Positions 1 through 7,217 of a stretch of DNA of 7,217 nucleotides are shown piece by piece. Source of the stretch: Pseudomonadota bacterium (lineage in GTDB: Bacteria; Pseudomonadota; Gammaproteobacteria; Acidithiobacillales; Acidithiobacillaceae). The notes beneath the pieces were generated by a model. That model did not search any database. It was not told the DNA's origin and saw only the letters and a program-made list of their open reading frames with translations. The DNA is taken from contig JAKBXD010000078.1 in NCBI GenBank assembly GCA_021840785.1, forward strand, positions 1,514 through 8,730, given 5' to 3'. The position numbers and the translations under genes were made by a program. Position 1 is the stretch's first letter. Every line of letters starts with the position of its first letter.

Positions 1-132
1 CACACCAGCCCCTTCTCGCAAGAAGCGTACAAGCAGATGAGCGAAAATGGGTGGGTAAAACGCATAGACGAAGCGTTGCGTGACTCCGTATTTAACGCAC
101 CGCTTCTCCCGCTTTTTGATTCCGGGGGGTGA
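1..132 (+). CDS. Tyrosine recombinase, C-terminal end only (partial)
   Basis: This is the 3' end of a gene that starts outside the window; frame 1 is open from the first base to a TGA at 130-132, giving 43 residues. The fragment begins HTSPFSQEAY. The spacing of nine residues from the first His to the Tyr matches box III of tyrosine recombinases, where a Gly-His pair is followed by the nucleophilic Tyr (compare LGHSDLSTTQIY in XerD). The Tyr would be codon 10 (28-30). After it comes a short, partly hydrophobic tail ending in DSGG. The stop overlaps the next recombinase gene by four bases (GTGA), so the two are probably translated together. From its place before a GmtZ-like gene it may be the GmtY-type recombinase of a gamma-mobile-trio-like module. 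The family call rests on a ten-residue motif plus context, because the catalytic Arg residues lie upstream of the window. Confidence 0.72.
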   Translation, partial: HTSPFSQEAYKQMSENGWVKRIDEALRDSVFNAPLLPLFDSGG

Positions 133-3100
133 CACGCGTGTACAGATACCTGACAACAGACTACAAAGTTGAGATTAGCCCGGCGACTGGCCGGGAAATC
201 AAGATTAACCCGTCCTTAACGAAATTCCTGATTGTTCCGGAACCAAATTCGATAAAAAGAGCCTATCGGCGTATTCGCGCCATGCTCGATGACATCGTGG
301 CAGAGCATGGGCGCAGTCAAGCCTACCTATCACTCACCCTTGACAAACACACGATGACAGTCGTTGAGACGCATTATAAAGATAACGATCAGATTGTCTC
401 CAGGCTTGATGAAGCCATTGGCGCCGTTATCGAATGGCGGCGGGAAATTAAAACGAAAATTAAAGACAAAACCGCATCGTCAATTGAAAAACGACGTTCG
501 GCTGGCGAAATGGTGTGTTTCATGAAATTCATTGCCATCCTTCGCGATGAAGAGGTGTTAGCTTGGCCGTCTTATCGTAATCTTCTGTGTACTGAGGAGG
601 ACGGGCGTCACCGCTCGGAGCACACGGTTATCTCAGGTTTTTTCCTGGGGGCCCTTAAGCCGCTGCTAGACCAAACCGAGACCTATATAAGGTCGCGTGA
701 TCACCATGCGTCGGTCAGAGTAATATATGAGTGGATCTTCAGCAGGCTTGGTATCACCTGCTTTGCTGACTTATCGGAAAACGTGTTGGGTGATGATCTT
801 CGTAAAGGCAAGGCAGCAGCTGGATACTATGGGCTCAAAGCGCACGATGCTTTAAACGCATTTTACAAGACCGAAGGCCACCCCGAACTTTGCTTCCCAA
901 CCGCCAAATATTCAAGGATCGGTCAGGACAAAATCACGGACGGCATTGACGAGGTAACGTATCTTTTCCCAACAATGGCGCAATGGGTCGAGATCGCAAA
1001 GGAATTTGTCGGACAGAGCACCGGTCAGAAGAAGACTATGCTGTCTGGTTTGCGCAGCTTGTTGCAACAAATTGCTGAGCGTGGACCAGATTTTCATGAT
1101 CCGAGATTTGTATTTCGAAATGCAGAACGTCTATCTGATCTGAATATCACGAATTCCCACTATAAAAAACTCTACAGGGGCTTTTTCAAGTTCGCCATGG
1201 AAAGCCGCAGTGTTTCGGAAATACTTCCCGATGGACGGGTCGCTGTTGAAGCGGGATTTTCCAACCCGATAGATCGTATAGGTGCAGTAAGCAACTCAAC
1301 CGCGGCCATCGAGTCGATGACACCGGCGCTCCCGACCTGGTTGATGCATCAAATGAAGCAGGTATTGGTTGAGGATAACTTCAGGTTCGGCCGTACACTC
1401 CATGTCAAAGGCATTGTGCCGGCGATTGACCGCCATATCCAACTAGATGGTCGTCCTATCTTCTGCCCTGTACGGAGTATCTATATGCTCCTGAAGCTTA
1501 CGCTGCCGGTGCGTGGCCACCAGTTGCGCTGCCTTGATTCAGGTGAAGGGGATGACCGTCGCTATGAGGTTGATCCGGAGGTCGTTGAACGTGCTGTTTT
1601 TGAGCAGACCTTTCCCGACGAGTTGCGCAAAGGAAAGTGGGCTATCAACAACGGGCAACTCGCAAGGCGAATCAGGCACTCACGGAAGATATTAGGGCAG
1701 CGGGTCCTTGGTCAGGGCACTCTTACCCAGCGGGTCGATAATGAAGGAGCACCATTTCTCGGGTTATATATCAATACAAACAAGACGGCAGACCAAGGGA
1801 AGATAGGCAACGAGGCGGGATATCATATCCCCTGGGTCAGTTCTGAAGCCGTCGCATATATTTTATATATGCGAAACTGGTGGGAAACAAATGCACCATT
1901 AGAGGTGCTTACCTCCTGGTCTGATATAACTGAAAGATATTTTAAGCAAATGGATCGCTTTTATCTGGCAGGCCGCCCTGATACAGCGTTTTTATTTCGG
2001 CAGCCTAGAAGCTCGATCGGCGCACCGTTGCAAATGCATCAAATCGAATATTTTTGGGACGCCTTAATGGCAGAAATGCAGGCACGCTTGCAAAAGCAAG
2101 GCATAACGGGAATAGATGGGCAGGAAATTAAGCTAGGTGAATTTGTTGAAAGAAAGAGTGCAGGTAATAAAACGGACGTAGCCGACAGAACTGTATTTAG
2201 GCCTTATTATACACTTCACTCAATTCGTCACGGATTGATTACTGCATTGGTGCAGGACGAGCGGATCCCAGTTGAGATCGTCATGAAGCTGGTTGGTCAT
2301 GCCTCGATGGTTATGACTCTGTGGTATACCAAATTCTCTGACAGACACTTTCGCGATGCCATGGAGAACGCCGCCCCAGCGCTCAAGGGGCAAATGGATG
2401 ATTTCCTCGCCTCGCTGGCGGAACTCGACGACGGGACACGGGAGCGGCTCATATTCAACAGCCCGAATTGCTACGCCTATTTGAAGGATTATCCTAAGGC
2501 TTCTCACACTATAACGGATCTCGGCGTATGTCCGAATGGTGCCCAGATGTGCCATGTCGGGGGAATAGAGGTGAAGGATGACGGGGAGTCCGCGAGAGAA
2601 GGTGGCTCTCCGAAATATAAATCTCTGCGTCCGATGAATTGCGTGCGGTGCCGCTTCCTCGTCACTGGACCGGCCTATCTACATAATCTTATCAATTACT
2701 TTCACCAAGTCGGCTGGGCTCTACGGGAGAAATCTGTTGCACTGAATAAGCAGTTCGATGCTTGTGATCGACTGGAACATGGGACCGACGAAGTGAGGCG
2801 ACAAGGAAGAGAAGTCGCTGCCAAGATGAATGCACTGCGCGTCGCCACGGAGCGACGGCAGGCCCTCGAACACGAGATCAGGGACATTGTTGACGACTGG
2901 TCAGCAACCTTTCGTTTGATCGAGGATTGTATCGCTATCGCGCGCAAAAGAGCTCTGGGCGATAGCGAGAAGGCTTTGTTACTCGTCAACGATTTTGCGA
3001 GTTTTACGGATAGCTTGGTGTCTGTGGATAGCGGCGAAACCACTGTGTTGGAACTTGCGGATTGGATATGCCAGGCAGCCGAAGTTATGCAAAGCAATGT

Positions 3101-3506
3101 ATTGACCGAGGTATTGTCCGCAGCCAGCGCTGAACGCCTCAAGCATCTCGACCGGATCTTGAAGCGCCAAGGTATCGATCCGGTTTTTTTTGATCTTGAT
3201 GAGGAAGTTGCCAGAGGTGTCGCCAATGAGATGGCTTATCGCCTCTACCATGAGCTTGGTCGGCAGGATGCCAACCGTATCGCTGCGGGCAATGCAACGC
3301 TGAAGGACCTTCGCATGGAACGGGCGCAACGCGGCCTTGATGATCGACCGATTCTTGCGGTCGAGACCCTGTTGCGGCAGGTCGGCCAGAACCCAAAGGT
3401 ATTGCTTGAGGGCCCGCCTCCTTCAGAATTCGGATCTGCCGCCATGAAGCGATTGGAACTACCGCGTCCGAAGTTGCAGACTACAGAGAGCCGCAAACGG
3501 TCATGA
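129..3506 (+). CDS. Large GmtZ/VPA1269-like tyrosine recombinase (integrase)
   Basis: This 1125-residue protein carries the tyrosine recombinase catalytic set: Arg I at R462 (LPVRGHQLRCLD), H697 and R700 in HSIRH, H724 in VGHAS, and the probable nucleophile Y733 in TLWYTK. It would cut and rejoin DNA through a 3'-phosphotyrosyl link. It is about three times the size of a phage integrase. About 460 residues precede the first Arg, and 235 residues separate R462 from H697, roughly twice the usual gap. Downstream lie two Cys pairs, C801-x6-C808 and C838-x2-C841, that could hold zinc, followed by NCVRCRFLVTGPAYL. A long helical, probably coiled-coil stretch follows at about 864-925, and the tail is basic. 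The Cys/TGPAYL block resembles, from memory, the VPA1269 (GmtZ) family. The start is GTG at 129, overlapping the upstream stop; a second GTG at 138 is better spaced from the G-run at 124-129. It lies second in a five-gene overlapping operon. Confidence 0.88.
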   Translation: MTRVYRYLTTDYKVEISPATGREIKINPSLTKFLIVPEPNSIKRAYRRIRAMLDDIVAEHGRSQAYLSLTLDKHTMTVVETHYKDNDQIVSRLDEAIGAVIEWRREIKTKIKDKTASSIEKRRSAGEMVCFMKFIAILRDEEVLAWPSYRNLLCTEEDGRHRSEHTVISGFFLGALKPLLDQTETYIRSRDHHASVRVIYEWIFSRLGITCFADLSENVLGDDLRKGKAAAGYYGLKAHDALNAFYKTEGHPELCFPTAKYSRIGQDKITDGIDEVTYLFPTMAQWVEIAKEFVGQSTGQKKTMLSGLRSLLQQIAERGPDFHDPRFVFRNAERLSDLNITNSHYKKLYRGFFKFAMESRSVSEILPDGRVAVEAGFSNPIDRIGAVSNSTAAIESMTPALPTWLMHQMKQVLVEDNFRFGRTLHVKGIVPAIDRHIQLDGRPIFCPVRSIYMLLKLTLPVRGHQLRCLDSGEGDDRRYEVDPEVVERAVFEQTFPDELRKGKWAINNGQLARRIRHSRKILGQRVLGQGTLTQRVDNEGAPFLGLYINTNKTADQGKIGNEAGYHIPWVSSEAVAYILYMRNWWETNAPLEVLTSWSDITERYFKQMDRFYLAGRPDTAFLFRQPRSSIGAPLQMHQIEYFWDALMAEMQARLQKQGITGIDGQEIKLGEFVERKSAGNKTDVADRTVFRPYYTLHSIRHGLITALVQDERIPVEIVMKLVGHASMVMTLWYTKFSDRHFRDAMENAAPALKGQMDDFLASLAELDDGTRERLIFNSPNCYAYLKDYPKASHTITDLGVCPNGAQMCHVGGIEVKDDGESAREGGSPKYKSLRPMNCVRCRFLVTGPAYLHNLINYFHQVGWALREKSVALNKQFDACDRLEHGTDEVRRQGREVAAKMNALRVATERRQALEHEIRDIVDDWSATFRLIEDCIAIARKRALGDSEKALLLVNDFASFTDSLVSVDSGETTVLELADWICQAAEVMQSNVLTEVLSAASAERLKHLDRILKRQGIDPVFFDLDEEVARGVANEMAYRLYHELGRQDANRIAAGNATLKDLRMERAQRGLDDRPILAVETLLRQVGQNPKVLLEGPPPSEFGSAAMKRLELPRPKLQTTESRKRS
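1852..1874. repeat. 23-base interrupted palindrome inside the integrase gene
   Basis: TCGCATATA (1852-1860) and TATATGCGA (1866-1874) are perfect 9-base inverted arms separated by five bases (TTTTA). The site lies at about codons 575-582 of the large recombinase, at the left edge of an AT-rich tract. It may form a weak hairpin or be a protein-binding palindrome, or it may be a coincidence of coding for VAYILYMR. Confidence 0.5.
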
Positions 3507-3964
3507 CGAGGCGCAACGTCGAGGAGGAGATTACCGCCAGACTGGATAAAATGTTATCCTTTGAACAACCATTGCCGGCGACGTCCGACGGCAAGGTAAA
3601 CGTTGCGGCGTTGGTTAGAATGCTCGGCCTAAAGGCCGCAGACACGCAGTATTTCCACAAAATTGATTCGATAAAAACAGCCGTCAATGCGCTCGCGGCC
3701 GAGCAAGGCTTAGCTCCTATTGGTGCCCGCACTGAACAGGCTGCCGCAGACAAGAAGCTGCTGAACCGGATAGCTGAGCAAGGGAGACGTGCAAGAGAGA
3801 TCGAAATTGGTGCGATCACCAACGCGTCTCTCGTCGAGGCTTTGAGCGAGGATCTGCGCGGAGCGAGGGCCGAGATCGTGCGGCTGCGCCGGGAAAACAC
3901 CTCGCTACGCGAGCGACTCGCCATGGTCGAAGATTGCGGATTTCTTTTCGGCGATCAGCCATGA
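3503..3964 (+). CDS. Small HTH-like / coiled-coil accessory protein
   Basis: This 153-residue protein was not recognised as a named family. Residues about 31-66 (from KVNVAALVRMLGLK) read like a small helix-turn-helix or winged-helix unit with a following helix. Residues about 107-144 form a charged amphipathic helix (ARAEIVRLRRENTSLRERL) with heptad-like leucines, a likely coiled coil for dimerisation or for contact with the recombinases. There is no signal peptide or membrane segment, so it should be cytoplasmic. The ATG at 3503 overlaps the recombinase stop (ATGA) and the stop at 3962-3964 overlaps the helicase start in the same way. There is no good Shine-Dalgarno sequence before 3503, only a weak GAGAG at 3486-3490 spaced 12 bases away, which fits translational coupling. 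By analogy it recalls the small helical protein TnpC that accompanies the paired tyrosine recombinases of Tn554-type transposons. That is an analogy of layout only, and homology is not claimed. Confidence 0.82.
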   Translation: MTRRNVEEEITARLDKMLSFEQPLPATSDGKVNVAALVRMLGLKAADTQYFHKIDSIKTAVNALAAEQGLAPIGARTEQAAADKKLLNRIAEQGRRAREIEIGAITNASLVEALSEDLRGARAEIVRLRRENTSLRERLAMVEDCGFLFGDQP

Positions 3965-6123
3965 TCGTGGAAATTGCGGTCGACCGTATTTTGGTGAAGT
4001 CGGCGACTTTCATCATCTTCGCGGGCGCAGCAGCCGATGGCCAACGCCTGATCGTGAAGAGTGCAGAACCCGTTCTGCCGGCGATCGGTGAGGTCTACCA
4101 GGTGGATGGCGAAGCCAAGGATTTTCGTGACCAACGTGGATATGTCCATCGCCAAATTGAGGCGCGATATATCAGTCGGGTCCGGATTTCCGGCAAATTG
4201 ATCGCACCGTGGCTGAGGACGCTGCCTGGGGTCGGCGTGGAACGCGCCAGGCGCCTTTTGATGGTCTACGGTAGCGAAGTGCTGGATGTGCTGACAGACC
4301 TCTCCAAGAATGAGGAATTGGCCGCGGTGATCTCGCCGGCCCGCCCGAATCTGGGCAGGAAGCTGGTGAGTTTGATTCAAAGTCGGCTGATTGGGTTCAG
4401 GACCGAAGAGGAAGCCGCTTTCGATGAAGGGCAGTTCTATCGCTCGCTCGAGGAATACGGGGTGTCAGAGGTCCGACTGGCAAGACGACTATGGCGGCTT
4501 TTCGGCGGCAATCAAGGTTGGGCTGGTCTGTTGGTCGACCCGTATATTTTGGCCGCCTTTACCGATTGGAAGTCGGCGGATGAATTTGGAAAGCGCATTC
4601 TTGTTGTTCGGTGCGGTTCGCTCGCTATTGGTGACCATCCCTCTCGCTTGATCGGGGCATGCGCATCTGCTTGGAGCGAAATCCTCTCAAGAGGAGAGAC
4701 CGCATGTGGCCGCGAGAGTTTCGTTGAAGTGCTGGCGCATCGGATTCCGAACCCGCTGGACGCCCTCTCCCTCGCCCTAAAGCGGGGCCTAATCCAAGAA
4801 TTTGGCCACCATCTTTGTCCCAAGGGTATCGCCTTTCTCGAGCGAGAGGTCCTACATGGATTCCATCGTCTACACGGTCGCGCTGAGCAGGTGCCCGATG
4901 TCGATGGTCTTATCGACAGAGCTCAAACTACTGCAGGTTTGCGCATGACAAGCGAGCAAACCGACGCACTGAGGTTTGCCATTAAGAACCCAGTTTGCTG
5001 CCTGCAAGGCGGCGCAGGAACTGGGAAAACGACGATTTTGCGGGTCTTGGTTCGTGCCTGGGAACAATGCGGCGGCGACGTCATCATCGCCACGATAGCC
5101 GGAAAGGCTGCTCTGCGGGCGAGCCGAGCGACCGGCAAACTGGCATATACGATGGCACGATTGATGGGCGGAATTGAGCGAAAGAAAGGACTATCCAAGG
5201 AGGGGCGCTTTGATGCAGCCAAAGCTATCGAAACCCCAGCGATCGGATCGCAAACACTTATCATTCTTGATGAAGCTTCAATGGTAGACCTAGCGGCTAT
5301 CCGATCCTTATTGGACCTCGCGCCCGACGGCGCCCGCCTGGTCCTTGTTGGAGATTTTGGCCAGCTTCCTCCGGTTGGCTTGGGTCAAGTTTTCCACGAT
5401 CTCGTGTCCTCAGGCTGGTATACAGCCACGTTGTCCACGCCGCTTCGACAAGCTAAGGAGAATCCGATAGTCGCCGCTGCGTGGGCGATTCGTAACGGCT
5501 TACTGCCGGGATTGCCCCCCTATCGTGGGGCCGCTCAGGGTGTTTTCCATCTTCCCTGCCCCACTAAGGAAATCGGTCTTAGAATCCAGCGTTTGAAAAG
5601 AGACTTCCCCGACGATGTGATGACGATCACGGCGCTTCGGGCAACCGCGGCGGCAATCAACGAAGAAGCAGCTCGGTCACTCGCAGCAATGGGCATCGAG
5701 GGGCAACGACTAGGGCCGAATTGCCCATTCGTCGCCATCGGGGAACCCGTGATTATGTCGCGCAATTTCTATGCGCACGGCTTGATGAATGGGCAAACTG
5801 GGACCGTCACAGCGATCGACCCTGTGACGATTAGATGGGACGGTGAGGAACAGGCACGAGAGGTCGACCCCGATTATATTGCGGAAATTGAGCCGGCTCA
5901 TGCGATCACCTGCCACCGTGCCCAGGGCAGCGAAGCCGACGTCGTTATTGTCAGCCTCGATAGCGCGCATCTTATAACTAGGAACTGGCTTTATACGGCC
6001 GTAACCAGGGCACGAAAGACAGCCATTTTCGTTGGGCCGAGTTCGACCATTACAGATGGTGTCGCCAAAATCACATCCCGCGCTACGGGTTTAAGGCTGA
6101 TGTTGGAACGGGAGGCGGCATGA
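3961..6123 (+). CDS. RecD2-like superfamily 1B DNA helicase (AAA ATPase)
   Basis: This 720-residue ATP-dependent helicase should move 5' to 3' on single-stranded DNA, as RecD-type SF1B enzymes do. An N-terminal domain (about 1-75) is followed by a helix-hairpin-helix at 88-104 (LPGVGVERARRLLMVYG), as in RecD2. The motor motifs are complete: Walker A GGAGTGKT at 350-357 with K356, Walker B ILDEAS with D437 and E438, motif III GDFGQLPPV at 464-472, R496 in LRQ, CHRAQGSEAD at 651-660, and motif VI YTAVTRAR at 678-685. A short beta-rich segment, MSRNFYAHGLMNGQTGTV, precedes the last two, as in UvrD_C_2 domains. There is no RecB or RecC partner nearby. The ATG at 3961 is preferred because it overlaps the previous stop by four bases, like the other junctions; a TTG at 3934 would add nine residues. 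It sits between two small proteins in a recombinase operon, which suggests a role in mobilisation, such as unwinding an intermediate, rather than general repair. Confidence 0.94.
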   Translation: MIVEIAVDRILVKSATFIIFAGAAADGQRLIVKSAEPVLPAIGEVYQVDGEAKDFRDQRGYVHRQIEARYISRVRISGKLIAPWLRTLPGVGVERARRLLMVYGSEVLDVLTDLSKNEELAAVISPARPNLGRKLVSLIQSRLIGFRTEEEAAFDEGQFYRSLEEYGVSEVRLARRLWRLFGGNQGWAGLLVDPYILAAFTDWKSADEFGKRILVVRCGSLAIGDHPSRLIGACASAWSEILSRGETACGRESFVEVLAHRIPNPLDALSLALKRGLIQEFGHHLCPKGIAFLEREVLHGFHRLHGRAEQVPDVDGLIDRAQTTAGLRMTSEQTDALRFAIKNPVCCLQGGAGTGKTTILRVLVRAWEQCGGDVIIATIAGKAALRASRATGKLAYTMARLMGGIERKKGLSKEGRFDAAKAIETPAIGSQTLIILDEASMVDLAAIRSLLDLAPDGARLVLVGDFGQLPPVGLGQVFHDLVSSGWYTATLSTPLRQAKENPIVAAAWAIRNGLLPGLPPYRGAAQGVFHLPCPTKEIGLRIQRLKRDFPDDVMTITALRATAAAINEEAARSLAAMGIEGQRLGPNCPFVAIGEPVIMSRNFYAHGLMNGQTGTVTAIDPVTIRWDGEEQAREVDPDYIAEIEPAHAITCHRAQGSEADVVIVSLDSAHLITRNWLYTAVTRARKTAIFVGPSSTITDGVAKITSRATGLRLMLEREAA

Positions 6124-6812
6124 CTATCGAAGAAGTCAAAGCTCTGAAAGATCGTTTGGTGGTATCGCGCCATACGCAACGAGCCAAGGATGCCGTCGAC
6201 GCGATTTGGCTCGCGCTTGAGGCGATGCGCCAGCGGCACGTGGTGACATATGCCGTCTCAGCCGTCGTGAGGACCGCAGAAGAATTGTGCCCAGGGAAGG
6301 CGCCGGCGCTCCAGACCGTACGCAACAAAATGGGCAAAGATTACCGTCAGCTGATTGATCTATACTCACGGGCCGCAGGTGCAAATCGGCCCGAGGACGC
6401 ATCGCCAACCTTATCGCGGTACGACCGCGTGATAGATGGCATCGACAACATCGAAATTCGGACCCAGATGAAAATCTTGCTTCGGGATTTCACGCGCGAA
6501 CGTAATCAGGCAAACGTGCTTCGGCAGCTGTTGGCGCGAGTCTCAATTCCAGCTGGTGGTACACGCCCGCCACCACAAATATCCGGTCCAGAACACGGCG
6601 CTTCACTCAATCCGGAAGAAGCGCTTACCGAATTCGATATCAAGTTGATGGAAAAGCTCAGCGATAAGAAAGAGTTTGAGAGGCGTGGCCTCGAACCCAG
6701 AGACAACGGAGAAGTCAGGACCCTCGACGACATGGTTGTCCTTCCTGCCGGGAGTACGCAAACCTTTGCGAGGGTTGCAAAATTTCTTCGTTCTTCGAGT
6801 TTGGCAGGATGA
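6120..6812 (+). CDS. HTH-like protein resembling GmtX
   Basis: This 230-residue protein is the last gene of the operon. Residues about 20-82 are helical. The stretch from VVTYAVSAVVRTAEEL to TVRNKMGKDYRQLI reads like a DNA-binding helix-turn-helix: a helix, a turn rich in Gly and Pro, then a recognition-like helix with RNK..KDYR. This pattern recalls, from memory, GmtX of gamma-mobile-trio islands, where a similar 'RNK.G..YR.LI' block occurs; no search supports it here. A second helical region spans about 102-140. A Pro/Gly-rich linker (about 143-157, IPAGGTRPPPQISGP) leads to a charged C-terminal part of unknown fold. There is no membrane segment or signal peptide. The ATG at 6120 overlaps the helicase stop (ATGA), and GGAGG at 6111-6115, four bases before it, gives this gene a real though tight ribosome binding site. 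A DNA-binding accessory or regulator of the recombinases is the likeliest role. Confidence 0.85.
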   Translation: MTIEEVKALKDRLVVSRHTQRAKDAVDAIWLALEAMRQRHVVTYAVSAVVRTAEELCPGKAPALQTVRNKMGKDYRQLIDLYSRAAGANRPEDASPTLSRYDRVIDGIDNIEIRTQMKILLRDFTRERNQANVLRQLLARVSIPAGGTRPPPQISGPEHGASLNPEEALTEFDIKLMEKLSDKKEFERRGLEPRDNGEVRTLDDMVVLPAGSTQTFARVAKFLRSSSLAG

Positions 6813-6821
6813 CTCCGCAAT

Positions 6822-6847
6822 AAGAACAAAGCACGAACATTGTTCTT
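6822..6847. repeat. Inverted repeat overlapping the LexA box
   Basis: AAGAACAA (6822-6829) and TTGTTCTT (6840-6847) are perfect 8-base inverted arms around a 10-base centre. The second GAAC of the LexA box also begins an exact 11-base palindrome, GAACATTGTTC (6835-6845). Together three LexA-type half-sites (6824, 6835, and 6842 inverted) are packed in 22 bases. The arrangement could give a second LexA docking option, or could be a hairpin in read-through RNA; no T-run follows, so it does not look like a terminator. Confidence 0.6.
6824..6838. promoter_or_regulatory. LexA (SOS) box, GAAC-N7-GAAC
   Basis: The sequence GAACAAAGCACGAAC is a perfect match to the alphaproteobacterial LexA operator, a direct repeat GAAC-N7-GAAC (GTTC-N7-GTTC on the other strand). 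It lies 136 bases before the recA start and directly abuts or overlaps the putative -35 region, where bound LexA would block RNA polymerase. This matches known SOS control of recA in alphaproteobacteria and is the best lineage clue in the window. Confidence 0.87.
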
Positions 6848-6974: not shown

Positions 6975-7217
6975 ATGAATGAACGAGCCAAAACTTCCGC
7001 AAGCGACAAAACAAAGGCCCTAGACGCAGCACTGGCGCAAATTGAACGCGCCTTTGGCAAGGGATCGATCATGAAGCTTGGAGACAAGCCACATGAGACG
7101 ATTCCCGCTATCTCTACAGGCTCAATATCGTTAGATATTGCGCTAGGTATTGGCGGCATGCCGCGAGGTAGAATTTGTGAAATTTTTGGACCTGAGTCTA
7201 GTGGCAAGAGTACTGTC
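6975..7217 (+). CDS. recA: RecA recombinase, N-terminal part (cut by window end)
   Basis: The first 81 residues of RecA are present and the frame is open to the window edge. After a short variable head, the N-terminal helix reads [20 protein letters not shown] (11-30), which in RecA packs against the neighbouring subunit of the filament. Then come [16 protein letters not shown] (46-61), MPRGR and the Walker A motif GPESSGKS at 72-79 with K78. RecA coats single-stranded DNA, carries out strand exchange and triggers LexA self-cleavage; the LexA box upstream is its expected operator. Against common proteobacterial RecA (EIYGPESSGKTTL), this copy reads [13 protein letters not shown], with SIS for SLG near residues 50-52. 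It also uses codons that are rare in GC-rich alphaproteobacteria (CTA, TTA, ATA, AGA, AGT). This hints at a divergent second copy, but the 81 residues cannot exclude the housekeeping gene. Confidence 0.95.

Follow-up and report, generated by a model that had tools for sequence, protein, structure and literature searches.

What kind of mobile element has a RecD2-like helicase in its recombinase operon, and where does it insert? The question is raised by a stretch of 7,217 nucleotides (contig JAKBXD010000078.1 of assembly GCA_021840785.1, positions 1,514 to 8,730; the whole stretch is called the window below), whose genes resemble the gmtY-gmtZ-gmtX operon of gamma-mobile-trio (GMT) elements (Mahata et al. 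2024, Nat Microbiol, as cited in PMC12715929). Positions 254998–262214 of plasmid NZ_CP041717.1 of Acidiphilium multivorum JZ-6, a circular record of 268,632 bp, are identical to the window at every one of its 7217 bases. We consider it probable (roughly 0.8) that the window represents the mobility operon, together with the start of a carried recA gene, of a site-specific element of the GMT or tyrosine-recombinase-operon type that lies inside the plasmid's recA.

Element Ends and Target Site

Two copies of a 10-bp core, AGTCCTCGGG, arranged as a direct repeat, bound the element; the distance between them is 16,117 bp (16,127 bp with one core included). At the left junction, upstream of gmtY, the 5' part of the plasmid recA ends at GPESSG, with the core at record positions 253581–253590; at the right junction, across the origin of the circular record, the gene continues from SSGKTT to its end, with the core at 1076–1085. 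The split gene is the plasmid's own recA, broken at its Walker A codons (between GPESSG and K), and the core corresponds to nucleotides 200–209 of the joined gene. When the flanks are joined at one core, an unbroken RecA of 348 amino acids results. Judged from these junctions, the block has defined ends at a specific site, with an in-frame empty site on joining the flanks. Most of the target and of the carried recA falls outside the window.

A near-repeat, TTGATAC[T/C]ACATC, is found inside both ends (12 of 13 positions match, a level reached in 0 of 300 mononucleotide shuffles), and the best inverted match of the two ends is 9/13. One further exact copy of the core is present in the plasmid, at 167672. 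The G+C content is 56.0% between the cores and 52.9% from gmtY to recA, compared with 62.7% for the rest of the plasmid.

A first-pass annotation of the window, made from the letters alone, had proposed a search for the block at variable sites with defined ends. The defined ends are those given above, and more than one location is indicated indirectly by an identical GmtX on 29 contigs, the longest of which has 3,786,318 bases versus 268,632 bp for the plasmid. Since this contig is too long for the plasmid, its length indicates that a chromosome-size copy or a cointegrate with the identical GmtX exists.

Operon Structure and Family Assignment

The operon runs in the order gmtY-like, gmtZ-like, small protein, RecD2-like helicase, and gmtX, with a complete recA as the next gene (table 1). 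The five-gene layout described in the first-pass annotation proved real: all four junctions are 4-bp stop/start overlaps (GTGA, ATGA, ATGA, and ATGA), and only the 43-codon tail of the first recombinase is in the window, the full gene having 448 codons in the plasmid record and beginning about 1.2 kb before the window. RefSeq places the start of the gmtZ-like gene at window position 138, 9 bases later than the start adopted here. For the helicase, the list of open reading frames has a longer TTG start at 3934, as compared with the RefSeq start at 3961.

Table 1. Features of the window (positions in the window)
Feature	Position	Strand	Basis
3' end of gmtY-like tyrosine recombinase gene, 43-codon tail	1..132	+	Frame read; NF040693
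gmtZ-like large tyrosine recombinase, 1125 aa	129..3506	+	NF047926 and Pfam Integrase_2
Small protein, 153 aa, ATGA overlaps on both sides	3503..3964	+	Homologues; weak DUF6262
RecD2-like SF1B helicase, 720 aa from RefSeq start	3961..6123	+	TIGR01448; PDB 3e1s
gmtX, 230 aa	6120..6812	+	NF040692
GAACAAAGCACGAAC, SOS (LexA)-type box, GAAC-N7-GAAC	6824..6838	+	Pattern scan; 136 bp before recA ATG
5' part of carried recA, cut at window end	6975..7217	+	TIGR02012

GmtX scores above the curated NCBIfam cut-off (NF040692, 74.9 bits vs. 40, E = 6.4e-21), while GmtY is below that of NF040693 (295 bits vs. 340, E = 1.2e-87) and GmtZ below that of NF047926 (429 bits vs. 600, E = 3.4e-128), so that the two recombinases are homologues and not equivalogs. 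The GmtZ-like protein also matches Pfam Integrase_2. With these E values, and 2e-74 for the helicase, chance is excluded for four of the operon proteins. Because GmtX passes its cut-off while GmtY and GmtZ are sub-threshold homologues, the block is best classified on sequence as a divergent relative of GMT elements and, by the curated cut-offs, no strict member. Furthermore, Y, Z, and X are not consecutive here, two genes being located between Z and X. The suggested GMT core is supported as far as homology to GmtY, GmtZ, and GmtX is concerned, but not at the level of the GmtY and GmtZ cut-offs. It had also been suggested that this relative was undescribed; it is indeed divergent, but RefSeq already labels genes here as gmtX and "VPA1269 family".

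Alignment of the window's recombinases with the GMT proteins of Polaromonas, Caballeronia, and Photobacterium (four sequences each) revealed invariant R233, K297, R384, H385, H406, and Y415 in GmtY, and R462, R467, K552, H697, R700, H724, and Y733 in GmtZ. We take these Arg/Lys/His/Tyr positions to be the catalytic residues of tyrosine recombinases. The 50,697 phage records searched contained no match to GmtZ, a search of viral contigs with the GmtZ alignment yielded no relative, and relatives of GmtX and GmtZ were not found by searching genome contigs.

Recurrence in Plasmid GMT Loci

We surveyed 72,556 plasmid records. GmtX matched 3 records, GmtZ-like proteins 146, and GmtY-like proteins 145. 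Thirteen loci besides the window's own (one of them via the GmtX matches) were read from 20 GmtZ-matching and 60 GmtY-matching records listed, and five more were read via the helicase. Y, Z, and X were detected by tblastn in 12 of the 13 loci, the Serratia locus having Y alone. Only insertion sequence (IS) genes were annotated between Z and X in these loci, and the order Y-Z-small-helicase-X (0/13) was seen only in the window's block.

VPA1267 was matched at two of the 13 loci (Providencia and Vibrio alginolyticus) and the helicase at one (Providencia), leaving 11 loci with no match to either. In nine of the 11, the sequence continues for 2.5 kb or more beyond X (beyond Y in Serratia); the flanks of the B. 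glumae and P. antarctica loci end at or just past X and are uninformative on both genes. VPA1267 was sought with one Shewanella query, which also misses the window's small protein and GmtX, and its absences are weak. Given the 11 loci without a match and the nine with such flanks, the helicase, as far as these sequences go, cannot be essential to all GMTs.

A search with the Providencia-type helicase gave 67 plasmid records at E <= 1e-70 (60 listed), and six contexts were read. Plasmids of Providencia, Shewanella, Klebsiella, and Photobacterium have Y-Z-X-VPA1267-RecD2-like helicase in one operon; this five-gene form, in which the operon extends beyond gmtX, is not named as a unit in the annotations (L185, 5295–7902; L186, 8055–10654; L187, 8055–10654; L190, 8055–10630). 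A divergent form was observed in Vibrio vulnificus, consisting of GmtZ (184 bits), an unassigned gene of 255 amino acids, VPA1267 (93 bits), and the helicase. A Salmonella plasmid has a truncated helicase with no detectable GMT genes within 8.5 kb. Comparison of these operons with the window indicates that GMT-type operons of two proteobacterial classes contain a pair made up of a small protein and a RecD2-like helicase, located behind X in Gammaproteobacteria and ahead of it in the window. The proposal, made from the window, that the helicase is a peculiarity of an alphaproteobacterial relative is not supported, since gammaproteobacterial GMT operons also have it, in another order. The small protein, and hence the exact five-gene order, was detected in 1 of the 72,556 plasmid records.

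A shared end motif upstream of gmtY was sought in 16 loci and was no better than in shuffles, and in the search for an empty site of the Providencia GMT only the left end was found. In the Klebsiella plasmid, the GMT operon is followed by a tyrS gene (L187, 10892–12145), another housekeeping gene beside a GMT operon.

Helicase and Small Protein

Scoring 251 bits against a RecD2 equivalog cut-off of 500 (TIGR01448), the helicase is termed RecD2-like and not RecD2. The PDB RecD chain 3e1s, a RecD2 presumably from Deinococcus, matches it at E = 1e-30, and the alignment runs through the motor domain and its motifs. The helicase shares the SF1B core with this protein and differs from RecD2 in the score above and in having no match to the Pfam domain HHH_RecD2 among 25 of 26 families listed. 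Its best PADLOC match is the type IV-D CRISPR RecD model (E = 2.6e-47).

Among 7994 scored candidates, 271 homologues of the helicase were found at E <= 1e-30. An unrooted tree was built from 73 of 120 listed homologues (48 near and 25 further), the window's helicase, and four GMT helicases. The four gammaproteobacterial GMT helicases form one clade with support of 100, and the window's helicase, on a long branch, groups with the 48 relatives with support of 99. It is possible from this topology that the alpha and gamma GMT helicases were recruited separately. The listed homologues P0016–P0067 are 52 RecD2-like proteins with 36–46% identity, none of them listed with HHH_RecD2; the 48 that were placed in the tree cluster with the window's helicase. 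P0016–P0041 include proteins from Lacibacterium, Roseomonas, Geomonas, and Novosphingobium. In the 72,556 plasmid records, a helicase of this subfamily (query P0022, E <= 1e-60) was detected once. A single-helicase search of viral contigs gave no relative, and among 506 loci from a helicase-alignment search the best 80 were at <=33% identity. These 80 loci and the best 80 of 268 loci found with the carried RecA, 160 in total, had no match to GmtY, GmtZ, GmtX, the small protein, or VPA1267 at E = 1e-4.

Ten homologues of the small protein were listed, one of which is 99% identical. The Pfam match to DUF6262, a label that we take to mean TnpC-like, is weak (17.7 bits vs. a cut-off of 29, E = 0.0041), and the homologue P0004 is also under the cut-off (23.5 bits, E = 6.4e-5). 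Searches of viral contigs with the homologue P0011 and with the small-protein alignment gave no relative. P0011 and the helicase homologue P0022 very probably share one contig, because both list the same longest contig, 69,064 bases, from identical sources. The homologue P0012 (29,252 bases) had no such partner among the 120 listed helicase homologues. Identity with GmtX was rejected (profile match, E = 0.2). The protein is a possible counterpart of VPA1267, which we infer from position and size; the profile match by hhalign (probability 0.7%, E = 0.079, not significant) did not uphold it.

Carried recA and Other Cargo

The carried recA is complete, encoding 346 amino acids (TIGR02012, 570 bits vs. 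a cut-off of 325), and its protein is 75% identical to the joined plasmid RecA. Its G+C content is 49.6%, compared with 64.1% for the split recA, and at the DNA level the two genes are 74% identical across the 3' two thirds that could be aligned, blastn leaving the core-containing part unaligned. The Walker A codons read GAG TCT AGT GGC AAG in the carried recA and GAG TCC TCG GGC in the split gene. No copy of the 10-bp core occurs in the carried recA; at Walker A its DNA departs from the core at 4 of 10 positions, a mismatch that fits escape from targeting.

The SOS-type box upstream of the carried recA reads, on the other strand, GTTC-N7-GTTC, which we take to be the alphaproteobacterial SOS (LexA) consensus. 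Because the 43.6-kb locus L001 holds four matches to the GAAC-N7-GAAC pattern, the presence of one near recA is suggestive only.

To the right of the carried recA, the cargo of the element includes a DUF1778 and GNAT gene pair (L001, 38432–39228), presumably of toxin-antitoxin type, and an IS256 transposase gene followed by a shorter second near-copy (39804–42095). Plasmid NZ_CP041717.1 has an unusually full set of repair and replication genes (recA, ruvAB, dnaE, both ribonucleotide reductase subunits, thyX, and topoisomerase IV), as well as Dot/Icm-type transfer genes.

Comparison with Known Elements

GMT elements, like the block, have an operon of overlapping genes that encodes two tyrosine recombinases and GmtX and has other genes next to it. 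The extended forms of Providencia, Shewanella, Klebsiella, and Photobacterium in addition share a small protein followed by a RecD2-like helicase, but there the pair follows GmtX, the helicases belong to another clade, and VPA1267 is not significantly similar to the small protein.

The RME of Vibrio cholerae S24 is a 32.8-kb island at recA nucleotide 494 that carries its own recA with an SOS box; it excises from its site and transfers to a plasmid-borne recA (PMC4405046); a similar island is located at nucleotide 491 of recA in V. parahaemolyticus 090-96 (PMC4334540). As with the element described here, these accounts give an island in recA with a divergent complete recA and low G+C content, an SOS box (in S24), and restoration of recA on removal, by polymerase chain reaction for RME and by joining the flanks here. 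They differ in the position within recA (494 and 491 versus the core at 200–209) and in the ends, S24 having 9-bp inverted repeats versus a 10-bp direct repeat here. Two of the viral (IMG/VR) contigs found with the carried RecA (L035, 9349–10957; L036, 4669–6252) have a full recA immediately preceded by a partial one that extends to about residue 173, an arrangement also seen at the recA end of the Vibrio RME. GmtZ was not found in these two contigs, which may be fragments.

Tn6283 (SE-6283) is a strand-biased circularizing integrative element (SE) with a tyrosine recombinase operon (PMC5991714; PMC10214605). Located in E. coli bcp, it carries a related thiol peroxidase, for which its authors suggest compensation and a likeness to RME (PMC5991714). 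It shares with our element the recombinase operon, insertion into a gene, and carriage of a related gene that may compensate, and differs in having no helicase among its four core genes; the SE gene order intA-tfp-intB-srap also differs at face value. SE intermediates are described as nicked double-stranded circles (PMC10214605). GInts (PMC5385486) and Tn554 (PMC10214605) likewise combine ordinary and large tyrosine recombinases with a small TnpC-like protein and a target preference, but have the gene sets ginABCD and tnpABC. For GinD, a role in binding DNA or orienting the reaction was proposed by analogy with TnpC, and the word helicase is absent from the text of the GInt paper (PMC5385486). 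The ginC-ginD blocks are reported to be absent from Alphaproteobacteria (PMC10214605).

Proposed Mechanism and Alternative Explanations

By analogy with GMT elements, SEs, GInts, and Tn554, GmtY and GmtZ would carry out strand cleavage and joining at the core, possibly assisted by GmtX and the small protein, which may bind DNA or orient the reaction in the manner of TnpC in Tn554. Unwinding of a nicked or circular intermediate may fall to the RecD2-like helicase, which could serve an SE-like copy-out step. The carried recA would keep RecA function where the host recA is disrupted, itself being no target, so that each insertion would disrupt a host gene and at the same time provide its replacement. 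The roles of the helicase and of the carried recA are what we infer from these comparisons. A bolder version is unlikely in our judgement: a "replace what you break" element whose recombinases would target the recA Walker A DNA, a strongly conserved segment of a key gene, whose SOS-inducible recA would be spelled to avoid cutting, and whose helicase and RecA would form an autonomous recombination machine driving copy-out transposition under DNA damage, the GMT relative and the Vibrio RME having reached the recA strategy independently.

Several observations weigh against a site-specific GMT-type element with these functions. The sub-threshold scores of GmtY and GmtZ and the lack of significant similarity between the small protein and VPA1267 belong here, as do the 11 GMT loci with neither VPA1267 nor helicase matched and the consequence that the helicase is dispensable for some GMTs. 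Both ends were read in one named copy only, on a plasmid, and the disrupted recA is a plasmid gene, which weakens the case for a need of rescue. The difference at 4 of 10 core positions in the carried recA is no more than general divergence could give.

The same 11 loci, nine of which have 2.5 kb or more of flanking sequence, would be expected if the helicase and the small protein were passengers, for example defence or repair genes that had landed in the operon and had no part in movement, and the type IV-D CRISPR match of the helicase and the solitary truncated helicase of the Salmonella plasmid point the same way. Yet both genes are coupled to their neighbours by 4-bp overlaps, and four further plasmids have a small protein with a RecD2-like gene in their GMT operons, arranged in a different order, which makes a passenger origin somewhat unlikely. 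We give still less credence to the idea that the carried recA is ordinary cargo that came to lie beside the split recA by coincidence, the core having merely matched a plasmid gene. It is true that recA-like genes are common on plasmids (1295 records by tblastn, 1070 of them <60% identical) and that the core spelling lies within general divergence; against coincidence, the split and carried genes are both of full recA type, the cut lies in conserved Walker A DNA, and the independent Vibrio island shows the same pairing and moves into recA (PMC4405046). Entry of the Campbell type, by homologous recombination between the carried and the plasmid recA with no use of the element's own recombinases, could draw on the 75% identity of the two proteins. 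One crossover would produce a hybrid recA copy at each end, but at the recorded junctions the left recA stops at Walker A and passes into non-recA DNA while the carried recA is whole and internal; these junctions refute such entry, to which we attach almost no probability.

Significance

A site-specific element of the GMT type inside recA would belong to a break-and-replace strategy that has precedents, established or proposed, in the Vibrio RME (recA) and Tn6283 (bcp). Among the matches listed in our literature searches (titles and the beginnings of abstracts, the original GMT description not being covered), none reported a recA island from Alphaproteobacteria or a GMT operon with a helicase. 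Within the reach of these searches, the new features are the recombinase type, the host class, the position in recA, and the operon.

A GMT-type operon can now be assigned exact ends and an exact target, and RecD2-like helicases recur in such operons in two proteobacterial classes and two gene orders. After the Vibrio RME, this would be a further, apparently independent island that breaks recA and brings its own, and, after RME and Tn6283, the third recombinase type for which break-and-replace is arguable. Because recA is widely used as a phylogenetic marker, trees can be misled by elements of this kind.

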